A stretch of DNA of 41,337 bases, taken from positions 1 through 41,337 of IMG/VR virus record IMGVR_UViG_3300047548_000361, one strand, 5' to 3'. The position numbers and the translations under genes were made by a program. The notes beneath the pieces were generated by a model that did no database searches, had not been told where the DNA came from, and saw only the letters and a list, made by a program, of their open reading frames with translations. Numbering within the stretch: position 1 is the first letter of the stretch; each line of letters starts with the position of its first letter. This document shows, in pieces, positions 22,784 through 41,337 of the stretch. Source of the DNA: a virus.

Positions 22784-25700
22784 TGGCGCTTTACCGCGAG
22801 AACGCTACCGGGTTTGTCTGTGAGTTTGCTTCATCACCTGGGGCTGGTTATACGCTGATTGATGCACAGCCCACTGACACGCTGACCAACCGGGTCAACT
22901 GGTGGCGGGATGTGGACAAGTGGAACCAGACCTCGGAATGGCATCCGTCGATTCAATCCGGCGCCGCTGAAGTACCCGGCAATGACACTCGGGCAGGATC
23001 TGGCATCAATGTCATGCCGAACGATTATTCCAGCTTCGAGTGGGCGGGAGCGATCTCTCCTGTATTCACGCAGATTGCAAGCTATTCACGCACAGCGGCG
23101 GCGGTCTATGCAGGACAATATGGCGTAAGGCTGACGCTCTCAGGCTCGGGCGGTTACATCGGGCTGGCTTCATCCTCCACGACCTACAACATCGTGCTGG
23201 CGGCATCGTCAAAGTGGATCTTCTCTGGCTTTTTCAGGCCGACCACATCCTCCGCGCAAACTGTGACCGTCACGCTTGTGACCCCGGCAGGATCTTATTC
23301 AATCACGGGGACGACAGAGGCTTCTAGCAATACTTGGAAGCGTATTTCTGGTGTGCTCGATCTGTCTGCGGACACGAGCATCTCAGGTCAGATCAGGATC
23401 AGCACCTCAACGACTGCGGCAAGCCTTGATTTCGACGCCATCATGCTCGAAGAGAAGGTCGGTCCCTATGACACGCCAAGCGCCTATTACTCGCCTTGGG
23501 GCAATGGGACGGTTGCGGATGAGTTTGCGCCTGACTCGATCACTCAGGACAAGCTCTGGGGAACGCTTTCTGATCGAATTGACCTGATCGACAACAGCTT
23601 GCCCGGATCGGTCAATGCAAGGCTGGCAAGCCAGTACGACACGCTTGTTCAGCAGATTGCCGAGGTTGCAGTCGGCAATGGGCAATTCGACGCAAATCTG
23701 ATCTGGTACTTCGACACCAGCGCCGACATTACCGGATGGACCACTAACAATGCCTCGATTGCTGTATCCGGTGGGTTCCTGACGGTTACCGCAAGCGGAT
23801 CATCTCCTTGGTTCCGCACCGCCACAATCGCGGTTGATGGCTCGGCTTATCAGCTTGTGCGGATGCGGGTTAAACGCACAGGCGGCTCTGGCTGGACAGG
23901 GACGCTCACTTATTTTTATTCCAGCGGATCAAGCACCAAGACCATTTCAGCACCCGCCAATGTCGGCACTGAATACGTCGAAGCCGATTGGGATATGTCT
24001 GGTGAGGCCTTGTGGACCTCAAACACGATCACAGGCATCAGGATCCAGCTTGGAACTGCATCGGGTGACAATTACTCGCTCGACTGGCTTGGTGTTGGCC
24101 GCAATGCGCCTGGTGCGTCTTACTCACAGGTGGAAGCTGTTCGCGTTCTGGCTGACAACAAGAACCGGGTTTTCTACCAGACGACAGCACCCGCCTCAGA
24201 TAGCAGCTACACGCTCAAGGTCAATGACCTCTGGTTTGACACCGATGATGGTTACAAGCCTTATCGGTGGACAGGATCAGCATGGACCGAAACCACGGAC
24301 ACCCGGCTTGCAACCTCGTGGGCTGAAATCTATGACATCGGCAACGCAACGGCATCTCCGTCCGGTGCGGCGGCGCAGCGGATCAACGGCATCAGCGCCA
24401 CAGCCTCGAGCAAGATCAAGACCTATTATCAGGCAAGCACCAGCGCACCATCTTCTCCGGTCTTGGGCGACTTGTGGTTTAAGACGGACCTGAACAACCG
24501 AGCCTTCCGCTGGAACGGCTCGGCATGGGTTGAAACCTCGGACGTTCGGATCGTCAACCTTGAGGCAAGTGTCGCAAACAAGGAAGAAGCCAAGGTCGGC
24601 TATTGCAGTCTAAATCCGTCAACGAACACCACCAAGGCCCTTTGCGAAGCGGCGGGTGGTACATGGACCAGCCAACCCTTCGCCACGGCGGTGAAGCAAG
24701 TCAGCGTTACGACCACAAGCGGCACAGCTACCGTCGAGCAGAACATTCAATCGCTGGCCACGGATACCGGGTCGCTCAAGACGCAGTACATGGTCAAGCT
24801 CGACGTTAATGGTTACGTCACTGGCTTCGGGCTTTATAACGCTGGCGCGGGTGCGTCCGGGTTCATTATCCGTTCAGACAAGTTCGTCGTCGGCTCGGCG
24901 TCAAACAACACCACCCCCTTTGTGGTCGATGCTGGAACCGGAGTGACCTACATCAGCGCGGCGGCAATCAAGAACGCCACGATTACCGGGGCGATGATTG
25001 CGAATGCGACGATTGGAACGGCGAATATCGCGGATGCTCAGATTACAACTGCCAAGATTGGTGACCTTCAGGTATCCACTGCCAAGATCAATGATCTAGC
25101 TGTTACCAATCTCAAGATAGGGAATCTAGCCGTTACTGAAGGCAAGATTGATAACCTTGCAGTGACTGAAGCCAAGATCGCAAATCTGGCGGTGACGAAT
25201 GCAAAGATTGCCAGCCTGTCCGCAGACAAGCTGACCGCAGGGACGATCAATGCGAGCGTGATTACCGTAAACAATTTGAACGCTTCGAACATCACAGGAG
25301 GTACGCTAAGTGTTGATCGGCTTCAGGTTGGGGGAATTGATTCAAGCAAGTTAGCTGCTGGTGCTGTAGGTAATATAGTAAGAGACTACTCAGAAACTCT
25401 AGCAAACATTGAAACAAGCTGGTCGTATTATTTAACGGCAACAATTCCATCGGTTTCTTACACAAGAACTGGCGTTATTGTTTCATTTTCTATTGAATTC
25501 TTAAACAGCCTTGGATTTGTTAGCGTCACAAGAGATTCATCTGGAATAATAACTTGGAATCCAAATACAGCTGGTTATCCTGTAGAGCTATTTTTTTACG
25601 TCACAAAAAATGGTAGCTATATGTCTCCAGTCATTGAGCATGATATTCCATGTTTAATACGGGGAAACGTAATAAATTACACTATTTCAGATTCCTCTCC

Positions 25701-28020: not shown

Positions 28021-28337
28021 CTTTTGAACCTATCTTTCCCGTGAATCTCAATCCGCTGGCGGCGGATATAAGAATCATAGCTCATGTTTACCCGACGACA
28101 CGCTTCAGCCTTACTAAACCCGCGCAAGACCAGATCCTTTGCTTCGGCGTACTTCTTTGTGAGTTCCTCACTCCAGGACGAACTCTTATCACCACAGCGG
28201 CCACGCATTGCAACGCTTATTTTCTCCCGCCGTTTTTGCATCATAGCGGCAACCCATCCAGCATTAAAGCTGACCTCGCAGCCATTCGGGTGTTCGTCAA
28301 GATAATCTTCCAAAGCCCATTCCTGTTCACGGTTCAT
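28017..28337 (-). CDS. Putative helix-turn-helix protein, 106 aa
   Basis: ATG 28337 (MNREQEWALEDYLDEHPNGC) is used; an upstream in-frame ATG at 28439 lies wholly within the preceding gene. The C-terminal part, DLVLRGFSKAEACRRVNMSY followed by DSYIRRQR, reads as a helix-turn-helix like those of resolvase or transposase recognition helices, with a basic end (IHGKDRFKR). It may bind DNA. It overlaps the upstream gene by 11 bases. The N-terminal half is acidic. Confidence 0.6.
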   Translation of the reverse strand: MNREQEWALEDYLDEHPNGCEVSFNAGWVAAMMQKRREKISVAMRGRCGDKSSSWSEELTKKYAEAKDLVLRGFSKAEACRRVNMSYDSYIRRQRIEIHGKDRFKR

Positions 28338-28923
28338 TGGCGATCCCGTGGTGTCTTTCTGCCAAGCGGATGCTGTCTCTAAAATCAGCGAAATAAGTGT
28401 CAGGATTTTCTGATTCAAATAACGCAACGATCTCCTCATGGGTCATCGGCTTCCTTGCTGGCTCGGCGGGTTTGGGTGGGTGTAGATATTGATCCCAAGG
28501 TGCGTCACCGATCAGACTGGCGATTTCTTTTGCTGCCCAGAAAATAGGATCTTCTTCGCGAATTTCTTCGTCCGTCATATCCTCTGATGTCCAAGAATCA
28601 GAGTCCCCCAAGAGGGATTCAAGGGCGTCATGGATTTGCAGAAGACGATGTTTCAGCGCCACAGGCTCCGCTTCTGGCTGGGCGGGTTTGGCGTTCTTTT
28701 CTTTTAACGCTTGCTCAATAGCTCTAGCGAAATAAGCAGGATCTAATGCTTCGCTCCATAAAGAAGTAACCTCGTGCATTTTCAACCCTTGCCAAGCGGC
28801 TGGCTCGGCGTCGAGGTAAGAGCGGATGTCTTCAAAAGCGTGATGCAATCGCTCAAAGTAAGGTTCTTCTTTATGGTCGTATGCCTCAAGCGCCCGTCTG
28901 AGCAGTTCTCTTTCTTTACTCAT
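28327..28923 (-). CDS. Hypothetical protein A of a paralogous pair, 198 aa
   Basis: ATG 28923 overlaps the preceding stop. The N-terminus (MSKERELLRRALEAYDHKEE, then FEDIRSYLDAE) and the C-terminus (ARKPMTHEEIVALFESEN, then SIRLAERHHGI) match those of the next upstream gene (28916-29464), while the middles differ. The middle is acidic, with a Pro/Glu/Ala linker (KPAQPEAEPVA). The C-terminal AE-HHGI module resembles a shuffled tail found in many small phage proteins, in my recollection. Function unknown. Confidence 0.7.
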   Translation of the reverse strand: MSKERELLRRALEAYDHKEEPYFERLHHAFEDIRSYLDAEPAAWQGLKMHEVTSLWSEALDPAYFARAIEQALKEKNAKPAQPEAEPVALKHRLLQIHDALESLLGDSDSWTSEDMTDEEIREEDPIFWAAKEIASLIGDAPWDQYLHPPKPAEPARKPMTHEEIVALFESENPDTYFADFRDSIRLAERHHGIANEP

Positions 28924-29464
28924 CACTCCCTCCTATCCCGTGGTGTTTTTCTGCAAAGCGGACGCCAGCCGAGAAACATCCTAAATCTGTTAGCCAATGA
29001 TCGTCATTCGTTGCAATCTCTTCGTCAATCTCCTCCTCCGTCAAAGGCTTCCTTGCGACTTGATTGGCCCTAATACACTGCGGATGGTGATCCAACCATG
29101 TGCAGTTAGAGTCACAAAAATTGTCCGCTTCTGGCTCGGCGGGTTTGGTGAATCTCTCGGGCCATTCGGCCTTATATTCCTTGATAGCTTCAGCCATTGG
29201 CGCTGCGTTTTCAGTCCTACCGCATGAGATAATCGTGTCTCTTGTGGTCAACCATCCAGCAAATAGATAAACCGCGCCTTCGTTTGACTGCCAGTCGATA
29301 TCTTCCCGCTCTGCCTCAATCTCTATTTTTGTTGGCTCCTCAGCGTCATCGGAATGGGTGGAGAGGTAGGTGCGGATTTCTTCAAAAATTACGGAAAATT
29401 TATCGGTTGCGGGTCTGTCCCAAGCATCAAGCGCCCGTCTGAGCAATTTGGTTGCGTTACTCAT
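28916..29464 (-). CDS. Hypothetical protein B of a paralogous pair, 182 aa
   Basis: ATG 29464 is used (MSNATKLLRRALDAWDRPAT) rather than the longer reading from 29521, which is inside the upstream gene. It shares LLRRAL-A-D, EEIRTYL and the C-terminal ARKPLTEEEIDEEIATNDD and GVRFAEKHHGIGG with the neighbouring protein A. Its own middle holds CDSNCTWLDHHPQC, a Cys/His cluster that could bind a metal; the partner lacks it. It overlaps its neighbours by a few bases. Confidence 0.7.
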   Translation of the reverse strand: MSNATKLLRRALDAWDRPATDKFSVIFEEIRTYLSTHSDDAEEPTKIEIEAEREDIDWQSNEGAVYLFAGWLTTRDTIISCGRTENAAPMAEAIKEYKAEWPERFTKPAEPEADNFCDSNCTWLDHHPQCIRANQVARKPLTEEEIDEEIATNDDHWLTDLGCFSAGVRFAEKHHGIGGSDE

Positions 29465-29673
29465 AAATCCACCCATTCCCAACCCAATACCAGCTTCACC
29501 ATCTTGCGGTGGAATAAACAAGGCTTCGTTGTGACATTAAACTGAACACCAATAGCACCGCCAAAACGATAGCCGCCAACGTATTTAGCAGGTTCGCAGA
29601 ATTTAACTCCCACGGTATCCAAATTGATCGGCCCTGATGTAGACCAAGTCCATGAACCGTTTTCTTCATTCAT
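29461..29673 (-). CDS. Hypothetical protein, 70 aa, Gly/aromatic-rich
   Basis: ATG 29673 (MNEENGSWTWSTSGPINLDT) overlaps the stop of the small membrane gene upstream (ATGA). The product has many Gly, Trp, Tyr and Val residues, as in a small beta-barrel or SH3-like fold, and ends LGWEWVDL. There is no signal or membrane segment. No family is recognised. Confidence 0.65.
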   Translation of the reverse strand: MNEENGSWTWSTSGPINLDTVGVKFCEPAKYVGGYRFGGAIGVQFNVTTKPCLFHRKMVKLVLGWEWVDL

Positions 29674-30975: not shown

Positions 30976-31211
30976 GGCGTCCCCAAGTGATAAAAGTCTT
31001 CAACAACGTCCTGCAAAAACATCTCAGACCAGCGGTTCCATTCGGACTGCGCGGCTTCTTTTTGCGCCACTCGCATCCCCTCTCTGATCTGCTTGGCAGC
31101 GTCTTGTCGGTAGCCGCCATCGATCAGGAAGGTCACTTCCTCAACGATGACCTGACGCTCCTGTGCGGGTGTCAGGCGTGATCTAAAAACGTGGTTATGT
31201 ACGCCTCTCAT
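30972..31211 (-). CDS. Hypothetical helical protein, 79 aa
   Basis: ATG 31211 overlaps the upstream TGA (ATGA). MRGVHNHVFRSRLTPAQERQ, then VIVEEVTFLIDGGYRQDAAK and WNRWSEMFLQDVVEDFYHLG, describe a mostly helical soluble protein. It has no signal or membrane segment and no recognised family. Both ends overlap neighbours, which supports it as coding. Confidence 0.7.
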   Translation of the reverse strand: MRGVHNHVFRSRLTPAQERQVIVEEVTFLIDGGYRQDAAKQIREGMRVAQKEAAQSEWNRWSEMFLQDVVEDFYHLGTP

Positions 31212-31372
31212 TTTCTCAAAACCCTCGCCATAAGAATCCCACGATCCACCAGGTTCCGGTCAGCCTTGTCCATGCGGTAGGTCGACTGGATGTGGTGGGC
31301 CAAATGAAAAGCGGCATAAAAGACCGCTGACGGTACAAAAAGAAGCACCGCCATGACTGCTAGGTAGATCAT
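31208..31372 (-). CDS. Small single-span membrane protein, 54 aa
   Basis: ATG 31372 overlaps the stop of the Gly-Tyr gene (ATGA). MIYLAVMAVLLFVPSAVFYA, then AFHLAHHIQSTYRMDKADRN and a C-terminal ILMARVLRK, has one N-terminal membrane span (about 2-25) and a basic cytoplasmic tail. Size and form fit small phage inner-membrane proteins. It is missed by length-limited ORF lists. Stop/start overlaps on both sides support it. Confidence 0.75.
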   Translation of the reverse strand: MIYLAVMAVLLFVPSAVFYAAFHLAHHIQSTYRMDKADRNLVDRGILMARVLRK

Positions 31373-31707
31373 TTCTTTCTCCTCAAGTTTTTACTGGCTG
31401 TGCCGTAGCCGTAGCCGTAGCCGTCGCCATAGCCGTTGCCGTAGCCGTAGCCGTAGCCGTAGCCGTTGCCGTTGCCGTAGCCGTTGCCGTAACCGTAGCC
31501 TTTGCCGTAGCCGTAGCCGTAGACGTAGACGTAGCCGTAGCCGTAGCCGTCGCCATAGCCGTAGCCGTCGCCATAGCCGTTGCCGTAACCGTAGCCTTTG
31601 CCGTAGCCGTCGCCATAGCCGTTGCCGTAGCCGTAGCCGTTGCCGTAGCCGTTGCCGTTGCCGTAGCCGTTGCCGTAGCCGTTTCCTACGGGTTTAAAAG
31701 GGGGCAT
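31369..31707 (-). CDS. Gly-Tyr hexanucleotide-repeat protein, 112 aa
   Basis: ATG 31707 overlaps the upstream TAA (TAATG); an earlier in-frame ATG at 31719 lies in the preceding gene. After MPPFKPV the chain is almost wholly Gly alternating with Tyr, Asn, Asp, Lys or Val (about residues 8-103), closing with TASKNLRRKK. The DNA is a run of six-base units (GGN TAC/AAC/GAC), so changes in copy number keep the frame. Such Gly-Tyr tracts can phase separate or stick to other proteins. Two stop/start overlaps, upstream and downstream, identify this frame as the coding one. Confidence 0.75.
   Translation of the reverse strand: MPPFKPVGNGYGNGYGNGNGYGNGYGYGNGYGDGYGKGYGYGNGYGDGYGYGDGYGYGYVYVYGYGYGKGYGYGNGYGNGNGYGYGYGYGNGYGDGYGYGYGTASKNLRRKK
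31401..31686. repeat. Hexanucleotide tandem repeat (CCGTAG / CCGTTG / CCGTCG family)
   Basis: On the plus strand about 47 units of six bases follow each other: GCCGTA mixed with GCCGTT, GCCGTC, GCCATA and a few GACGTA and ACCGTA. They encode the Gly-Tyr protein on the minus strand. Several longer blocks recur inside (for example GCCATAGCCGTTGCCGTA), which shows past duplication or slippage. Units of six bases preserve the reading frame. Confidence 0.9.
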
Positions 31708-32006
31708 TACAGCCCCCACCCATCATGTACAGGGACACAAAAAACTTCGGCGCCTTCCGGAAGATCTACGCCGTTGGGCATTGGTTTGATCGTAACTTTT
31801 TCGGACTTAGGATTAGCGATCGTCCCATCAAAACCAACGTCTTCCCATCGGAAGACCCACACAGCGTTGTCTAACCTGATCCTGCCGTTCTCACGGGTCA
31901 CATCCCCAGCAAAAATCCAGCCGCGATCTACTACAACCACTGCACGGGAGCCAGCTGGGCGGTTTACCGGCGCGTACTCAACACCATTGATAGTTAGGTT
32001 TTCCAT
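31707..32006 (-). CDS. Hypothetical protein, 99 aa
   Basis: ATG 32006 shares a base with the upstream TAA (TAATG). MENLTINGVEYAPVNRPAGS, then RAVVVVDRGWIFAGDVTREN and a region with AVWVFRWEDVGFDG, look like a small beta-barrel. The end, VFCVPVHDGWGL, is followed at once by the Gly-Tyr gene. It resembles phage early proteins with an NG-EY-P start, but I cannot name it. Confidence 0.7.
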   Translation of the reverse strand: MENLTINGVEYAPVNRPAGSRAVVVVDRGWIFAGDVTRENGRIRLDNAVWVFRWEDVGFDGTIANPKSEKVTIKPMPNGVDLPEGAEVFCVPVHDGWGL

Positions 32007-32161
32007 TATTTAGCCTCCCGATTGGTTTGTTGAGCCGGGTAGTACCCGGTCCAATTACAGTTTCCGCATTCCCAGTGGCCAGCAAGCGCCAGCCAGTAGG
32101 TCTGCACTCCACACTCCGGGCAGTAGCCGGGGCGGGTGTTGGGGGTGTCTAGGTCGTCCAT
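32006..32161 (-). CDS. Zinc-ribbon small protein, 51 aa
   Basis: First gene of the long leftward operon. ATG 32161 follows a perfect AGGAGG (32169-32174 on the plus strand as CCTCCT). The protein has two CxxC knuckles, C14-P-E-C17 and C32-G-N-C35, with MDDLDTPNTRPGYCPECG at the start. Such ribbons bind one zinc and often nucleic acid or protein. It lies about 24 bases after the predicted transcription start. Confidence 0.78.
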   Translation of the reverse strand: MDDLDTPNTRPGYCPECGVQTYWLALAGHWECGNCNWTGYYPAQQTNREAK

Positions 32162-41179: not shown

Positions 41180-41337
41180 CCACCCTCGCGTGTGCGCCCA
41201 CGTGCCCACGTGCGAGTGCGCCCACGTGCGTATGCGCCCACGTGCCCACGTGCGTATGCGCCCACGTGCCCACGTGCGTATGCGCCCACGTGCGTATGCG
41301 CCCACTTGCCCACGTGCGTATGCGCCCACGTGCCCAC
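41180..41337. repeat. CACGTG tandem repeats (right contig end, same as position 1 onward)
   Basis: Bases 41180-41305 are identical to 1-126. After that this copy carries one extra 8-base unit (TTGCCCAC) and then realigns with 127 onward for 23 bases. The match shows that the contig closes on itself, so the genome is about 41,179 bases; the difference shows that copy number in the array is unstable or hard to assemble. The 67 bases before it (41113-41179) hold the degraded 20-base repeats and no gene. Confidence 0.85.

Follow-up and report, generated by a model that had tools for sequence, protein, structure and literature searches.

The described family closest to the locus reported here is DUF6948 (PF22253), a Pfam family without an assigned function. 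Several genes situated immediately upstream of the glycine-rich repeat genes discussed below match this family strongly and have the same position and size, whereas the corresponding protein of our window (the whole stretch of DNA analysed, a whole virus record of 41,337 bases) falls below the model when taken alone. A second point of reference is the Sm/LSm fold, as in SmAP1 (1i8f) and 3by7; Sm-like barrels can serve other jobs. The upstream protein shares with them the predicted fold and the conserved strand-2 Gly, but it has no Sm2 Arg-Gly and 13% identity, is coupled to a low-complexity partner gene and is known from a single-chain prediction. The third comparison concerns FUS and hnRNP, eukaryotic RNA-binding proteins with Tyr/Gly low-complexity domains. 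The chain of alternating Gly and another residue (Gly-X) encoded by the phage gene likewise places Tyr as sticky residues among Gly/Ser/Asn/Asp spacers and is paired with an Sm-like protein, but it is encoded by a separate gene, alternates strictly as dipeptides and is specified by a hypervariable hexanucleotide array.

At the DNA level, the D segment of the bovine ultralong CDR H3 carries repeated GGT-TAT codons whose Gly-Tyr runs are a substrate for rapid change (PMC7366855). That change proceeds by somatic hypermutation to Cys (PMC7366855), whereas in the phage arrays whole units are gained, lost and exchanged. Low-complexity regions were reported in half of 102 phage proteomes, with aromatic residues under-represented in them, and the part of that survey used here mentions neither a Gly-Tyr family nor an Sm-like partner (PMC6821194). 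The open-access papers searched gave no match for the repeat strings, DUF6948 or phage Tyr/Gly condensates, and the words repeat and glycine are absent from one gonococcal prophage paper. An earlier note on this DNA, which knew of no described phage protein of such a form, thus agrees with that literature. Sm-like folds and low-complexity chains are each familiar on their own, but we found no described system that couples them; the function of the module is unproven.

The Gly-X gene of the window encodes MPPFKPVG, then 47 Gly-X units, then TASKNLRRKK (Table 1). The earlier note had described about 47 six-base units encoding a nearly pure Gly-X chain with a basic end, in a frame fixed by TAATG and ATGA overlaps with the neighbouring genes. 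The unit count, the basic C-terminus and both overlaps were borne out, the ATGA overlap between the end of the Gly-X gene and the start of the downstream gene being real on inspection; the strand, which that note did not give, is minus. Its list of X residues holds for Tyr (30), Asn (11), Asp (4) and Lys (2) and fails for Val, which sits twice in the Gly position (GTC TAC). Read from GGAAAC, the 47 units comprise 22 GGCTAC, 10 GGCAAC, four each of GGCTAT and GGCGAC, two each of GGCAAA, GGTTAC and GTCTAC, and one GGAAAC. Tandem Repeats Finder reports a single period-6 array (31402-31682, 46.8 copies, 83% matches), and at most five consecutive Gly-X units were seen in 50 mononucleotide-shuffled copies of the window. 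All four TAT units precede a GAC unit, suggesting that blocks were copied together; the longest repeated string of units was matched or beaten in 202 of 1000 shuffles, so it is not exceptional. An Ala-Thr open reading frame in another frame of the array (31383-31616) was rejected as a by-product of the Gly-X array.

Table 1. Coordinates of the Gly-X gene, its array and neighbouring features in the window
Feature	Position	Strand	Basis or remark
Gly-X hexarepeat gene, 112 codons	31369..31707	(-)	ATG at 31707, stop ends at 31369
Hexanucleotide array, 47 units GGN-NNN	31405..31686	(-)	Repeat count and translation
TAATG stop/start overlap, couples Sm-like gene to Gly-X gene	31705..31709	(-)	Read in sequence
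GGTGGGGG, weak Shine-Dalgarno-like site of Gly-X gene, within the end of the Sm-like gene	31713..31720	(-)	
Upstream partner gene, 99 aa, predicted Sm-like fold, DUF6948-like superfamily	31707..32006	(-)	AlphaFold2, Foldseek, relatives, linkage
GGGAGG, strong Shine-Dalgarno-like site of Sm-like gene	32014..32019	(-)	
Upstream 51-aa four-cysteine zinc-ribbon-like gene, AGGAGG site	32006..32161	(-)	
Downstream 54-aa gene, hydrophobic N-terminus, ATGA overlap	31208..31372	(-)	Outside the conserved pair

The gene is one of a series of short, overlapping genes on the minus strand that follow a DNA polymerase A-like gene (phrog_17, 2e-81). A megablast search of GenBank revealed no phage closely related to the window. 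Elsewhere in the window, both ends (9-183 and 41188-41337) fall in the same GCCCACGTGCGTATGC-type tandem array on the same strand, and the genome therefore probably closes through this array. Two adjoining early genes (28327-28926 and 28916-29521) have common C-terminal parts (ARKPMT-EEI ... AE+HHGI), also present in genes of the related loci L004 and L005, and form a paralogous family of small early proteins. A large tail-region gene contains 30-nt repeats at 25113-25208 that encode KIxNLAVTEA-like units.

A scan of viral contigs for the Gly-Tyr codon pattern returned at least 120 stretches, most of them with long Gly-X open reading frames. Several of these relatives match the ends of the window gene, sharing an N-terminal (M)F[KR]P[VI]G and a basic C-terminus, for example GTVSTRNRRSL, while other Gly-X subfamilies start with LTLDG or have longer N- or C-terminal parts. 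In the loci with window-like ends, a homologue of the window's partner gene lies just upstream, and in the other subfamilies the upstream genes are of similar size with the same Gly34 and Trp54 landmarks (window numbering). The genes downstream of the Gly-X gene vary among relatives.

The linkage was counted in both directions. Relatives of the A1 partner subfamily occurred at 326 places in viral contigs, from which 85 loci were kept (80 viral, 5 from metagenome-assembled genomes, MAGs), and a Gly-X gene lies directly downstream in 80 of the 82 that could be evaluated (85 minus three ending too early), the exceptions being L133 and L139. TAATG or TGATG overlaps are common to most A1 loci. Three further partner subfamilies occurred at 534, 373 and 364 places; 240 loci were kept, 11 of these were excluded as the sequence ends within 250 nt, and 226 of the remaining 229 have the Gly-X gene downstream (224 by pattern, L285 and L416 by eye), it being absent or decayed in L239, L315 and L441. 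For the four subfamilies together, the repeat gene directly follows its partner in 306 of 311 evaluable loci, not all of which are independent of each other. Starting from the repeat, 75 clean arrays had enough sequence upstream to be judged, and 69 of them have an Sm-like gene within 1.2 kb; of the six that do not, four are tandem Gly-X copies. Given that the queries were drawn from Gly-X loci, very distant Sm-like homologues without a Gly-X gene may be under-sampled. Also, many viral contigs among L230-L469 stop inside or just short of the array; arrays thus seem to interrupt assembly from short reads and are probably more frequent than the counts suggest. An Sm-like gene stands without a downstream Gly-X gene in L133, L139, L315 and L441. 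Two or three head-to-tail copies of Gly-X genes were seen in L116, L029, L081, L087, L042, L091 and L148.

On sequence evidence, the Sm-like and Gly-X genes are a conserved two-gene phage module, kept in the same order with translational coupling signals. The earlier note was right about a real gene in an overlapping operon with coupled neighbours, but the gene is not a lone one, as genes like it occur in hundreds of diverse phages, and the Sm-like gene that almost always stands just before it had been missed. Simple repeats do slip, and a neutral microsatellite that is open by chance and has no function might be imagined; the almost invariable association with a single gene superfamily in different phages, the kept frame and the conserved termini make this extremely improbable.

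The pair is found in cultured phages as well: the Rheinheimera Barba phages (gp018/gp017), Pectobacterium phages Ymer, Taid, Amona, Koroua and Pappous, Dickeya phage Setonix, Eggerthella phage PMBT5 (gp37/gp38), Vibrio phage IKEMa6-1, Iodobacter phage phiPLPE, in which the repeat gene is unannotated, and Chlorobiaceae phage CV-1-33. For the latter, GenBank annotates gene25 (L218:2786-3031) in the wrong frame (MAMAMA), and the Gly-X frame is intact with its own ATG. Further carriers include the environmental phage genomes ctOK67 and ct8d5349, MAG loci (Burkholderiales, Dechloromonas and others), a plasmid record of Monoglobus pectinilyticus, and Neisseria gonorrhoeae chromosomes filed as plasmids in PLSDB (L470:2785-3069, L472:1485-1769), in which the arrays differ between the two strains. 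The hosts of phages carrying the pair span Pseudomonadota, Bacillota, Actinomycetota and Chlorobiota. On the Monoglobus record, PLSDB predicts a BPU beta-lactamase resistance gene at L471:5010-5198, on a hypothetical gene of only 62 aa, which makes that prediction doubtful.

AlphaFold2 models the partner protein of the window (alignment of 101 sequences) as a small barrel with a pLDDT of 94.3, in keeping with the five-stranded barrel of the Sm fold. Nearly all of the 50 PDB matches listed by Foldseek are Sm/LSm or structurally similar proteins, the best being SmAP1 (E 1.3e-3, probability 1.00), followed by spliceosomal Sm, Lsm1-7 and 3by7, which is described as Sm/LSm-like; TM-scores reach 0.70 by target and about 0.5 when query-normalised, with E-values of only about 1e-3. 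Among viral structures (BFVD), Foldseek retrieved DUF6948 proteins, one at E 1.3e-4, the Rheinheimera and Eggerthella phage homologues and, lower, proteins named Sm-like, and a sequence search of the PDB yielded no convincing match. The Gly of strand 2 that is conserved in the Sm1 motif is present in all 101 aligned sequences (Gly34), and Trp54 is the only other near-universal residue. The same alignment holds no Sm2 Arg-Gly RNA-contact signature; the window subfamily has Pro83-x-Gly-Ala/Ser in its place and no conserved Arg-Gly elsewhere, and for this reason the partner is called Sm-like in fold only and is not filed as an Sm protein. The partner is thus predicted to fold as an Sm-like small beta-barrel, and RNA binding by it is unproven.

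A Pfam search with the window partner protein alone gave no match, placing it below the curated cut-off of DUF6948. That cut-off is exceeded by the upstream proteins of L059, L047, L027, L122 and L017, and matches among upstream genes range from 3e-30 (L059), 5e-29 (L017), 1e-28 (L047) and 1e-24 (L122) down to 1e-19. The window protein is joined to the family through intermediates and fold, by the common Gly34/Trp54 and Gly-X neighbour, and by PMBT5 gp37 (34% identity, E 3e-5). It belongs, as these comparisons indicate, to a diverse superfamily whose best-annotated members are DUF6948. In phrog_18306, DUF6948 is matched at 154-238 (3e-11) and the Gly-X repeat weakly at 57-135 of one profile (E 0.013); such a fusion, if real, supports a joint function. 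A whole-genome DUF6948 search of five MAGs gave zero matches at any place and was uninformative.

Across arrays, the X residues are Tyr (47%), Asp (22%), Asn (18%) and Ser (5%). His is rare (21, as against 816 Tyr, 323 Asn and 391 Asp) even though it is one base away from all three, which suggests selection on the residues. Diversity within arrays at G1, G2, G3, X1, X2 and X3 was 0, 0, 0.13, 0.56, 0.18 and 0.12 (63 arrays), the zeros at the first two Gly positions arising by construction of the search. The Gly codon and the third base of X differ between phages and hardly inside one array, and in a second array set G3 diversity was 0.36 pooled versus 0.09 within arrays. We conclude that phages preserve the protein, while each array becomes homogeneous and is rearranged in whole units. 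Near-frozen third positions, perfect hexamer periodicity and fast copy-number change could also be read as an RNA or DNA element, with the mRNA array serving as a repeated binding site of the Sm-like protein (autoregulation) or the DNA as a recombination or slippage site, and the protein being incidental. This seems improbable, as the Gly-X frame, start and end motifs are conserved, one subfamily carries a 115-aa C-terminal domain, codons differ between phages with the residues kept, and the RNA of the window array folds like its own shuffles (z 0.18). The frame and conserved ends instead indicate that selection keeps the Gly-X protein.

Some 50 Gly-X proteins, the majority from the HRGVFFGY subfamily (L122:2453-2800 and 41 relatives), share the conserved 115-aa C-terminal domain. 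This domain is predicted with a pLDDT of 93 and has no PDB match, so it provides no functional clue; the model may represent a new fold. Several annotations of the chain itself were rejected. TrAA12 (PF22807) scores 24.5 bits against a cut-off of 30.9 through low-complexity overlap only, NCBIfam ser_rich and similar matches are sub-threshold overlaps of the same kind, a Gly-X/CspA fusion in L288 is merely a frame-shifted read-through, and the GenBank names 'adsorption protein' and 'lamprin' are probably transferred to Gly-rich sequence.

The length of the array changes while its surroundings stay constant. Where metagenomic contigs share an identical partner gene, their arrays are 9 to 210 nt apart in length, a difference that is invariably divisible by three and mostly by six; for pairs whose partner genes are at least 90% identical, differences other than multiples of three appeared only in comparisons involving L178, where two arrays confused the choice of reading frame. 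Short-read assembly can miscount repeats, and cultured isolates therefore weigh more, though isolate genomes too may rest on short reads. Rheinheimera phages 9A, 2A, 10-8D and 10-9I show 0 differences in 865 nt of flank (415 nt upstream, 450 nt downstream) and have four repeat alleles in genes of 210, 210, 216 and 216 nt, while 31A has one flank difference and a rearranged Gly-X gene of 252 nt. Across 30 Rheinheimera isolates sampled from 115, the region measures 1001 nt in most and 1007 nt in a minority. Similarly, Pectobacterium phages Ymer and Amona match exactly in the partner gene and in 500 nt downstream, with Gly-X genes of 222 versus 204 nt, and in the Pectobacterium set these genes extend from 162 to 270 nt, every step being a multiple of six. 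The hallmarks of a diversity-generating retroelement target would be a reverse transcriptase, a template repeat and adenine-specific change; in these arrays complete units change, and X1 can be T, A or G. The expectation that six-base units keep the frame while length may vary is upheld by these whole-hexamer changes in cultured isolates, and the relatives, checked for stops and frameshifts, keep the frame in nearly all cases, the misannotated CV-1-33 gene included. These comparisons indicate that the array turns over by whole hexamers, much more quickly than the flanking sequence changes.

The neighbourhood points to an early role. Among 90 neighbouring proteins scanned, those recognised are mostly ERF, YqaJ, RecE/exonuclease, RecT, DnaB, polymerase, ThyX, integrase and helicases, and the sole packaging protein among the matches listed is a terminase small subunit; SSB, Bet, DnaC and Holliday resolvase genes also occur near Gly-X genes. 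The phages closest to the window in their polymerase (L004-L007) gave no sign of the pair in the sequence examined, and L004 and L005 retain the zinc-ribbon gene beside its site, indicating that the pair is accessory. The GenBank name of PMBT5 gp38 and the existence of glycine-rich hypervariable adhesin tips, as in T-even gp38, would suit an adhesin or virion protein, and the earlier note had mentioned adhesion. T-even gp38-type genes are grouped with tail fibre genes, but the window gene and most relatives lie in replication and recombination regions with DNA polymerase, SSB, Erf, RecE/Bet, DnaC and Holliday resolvase genes. A tail fibre gene does adjoin the Pectobacterium pairs, but on the opposite strand, and no chaperone or fibre gene is conserved beside the Gly-X gene. 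Adhesion is thus disfavoured by the early-gene setting, and we regard it as very unlikely.

The strongest rival is an anti-defence module, in which an oligomer of the Sm-like protein would bind a nucleotide signal or a protein of host defence, with the hypervariable Gly-X chain as a decoy or tether under an arms race. The early accessory position, present or absent between related phages, and the population-level hypervariability of the array would fit this, as would an anti-CBASS Acb3 gene near one locus; known phage sponges are small oligomers, and the archaeal Sm ring 1loj was solved with UMP. Nevertheless, that gene is the single anti-defence neighbour in the 90 scanned, replication and recombination genes dominate, and variation is confined to four residues in fixed alternation, which is not the usual diversifying pattern. 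We consider an anti-defence role unlikely, if less so than the other rivals.

Our preferred reading, to which we assign a probability of roughly 0.4, is that of an early two-protein unit in which an Sm-like oligomer recruits a multivalent Tyr/Gly partner into a condensate-like nucleic-acid scaffold, the linkage being observed and the function inferred. The Sm-like protein would oligomerise, possibly as a ring, and present or recruit many copies of the Gly-X chain, in which Tyr would provide sticky sites and Gly, Asn, Asp and Ser the spacers. The resulting scaffold on phage or host nucleic acid, either RNA or single-stranded DNA from replication and recombination, would be multivalent and condensate-like, with repeat number setting its valency. 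Length would change through slippage during replication or through misaligned annealing of single strands, several units being copied as a block. Of the parts of this proposal, a physical interaction of the two proteins appears rather probable, and the idea of a condensate or scaffold associated with nucleic acid, whose valency follows repeat number, is put forward tentatively. The alternation of Gly with Tyr, Asn, Asp or Ser, strict through most units, resembles that of silk fibroin and keratin-associated proteins and might instead build a fibrous or gel-like protein, with silk-like beta-sheet or polyglycine assembly (e.g., an intracellular scaffold) and the Sm-like protein as chaperone or cap. 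Frequent Asp would oppose stacking, however, occasional breaks (GG, Val for Gly) are tolerated, and hexamer slippage mechanically yields alternation anyway, so a fibrous assembly seems quite unlikely.

Taken at its broadest, the condensate reading would mean that phages of at least four bacterial phyla use an Sm-like ring to nucleate a phage-made condensate through a fast-evolving Gly-X partner and to organise nucleic acid early, with repeat number as a population-level tuning dial, unlike any described system; this is possible but doubtful. The DUF6948 superfamily gains a predicted fold and a near-obligate partner, and the pair accounts for a group of arrays that annotation had missed or put in the wrong frame. 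Among cultured phages, those that differ in repeat number and composition between identical flanks offer a natural experiment on low-complexity repeats. If the pair works together, it would be a minimal, portable phage version of a eukaryotic arrangement in which Sm/LSm-type proteins are paired with disordered partners rich in Tyr and Gly, and phage-built RNA/DNA condensates would become a directly testable question.
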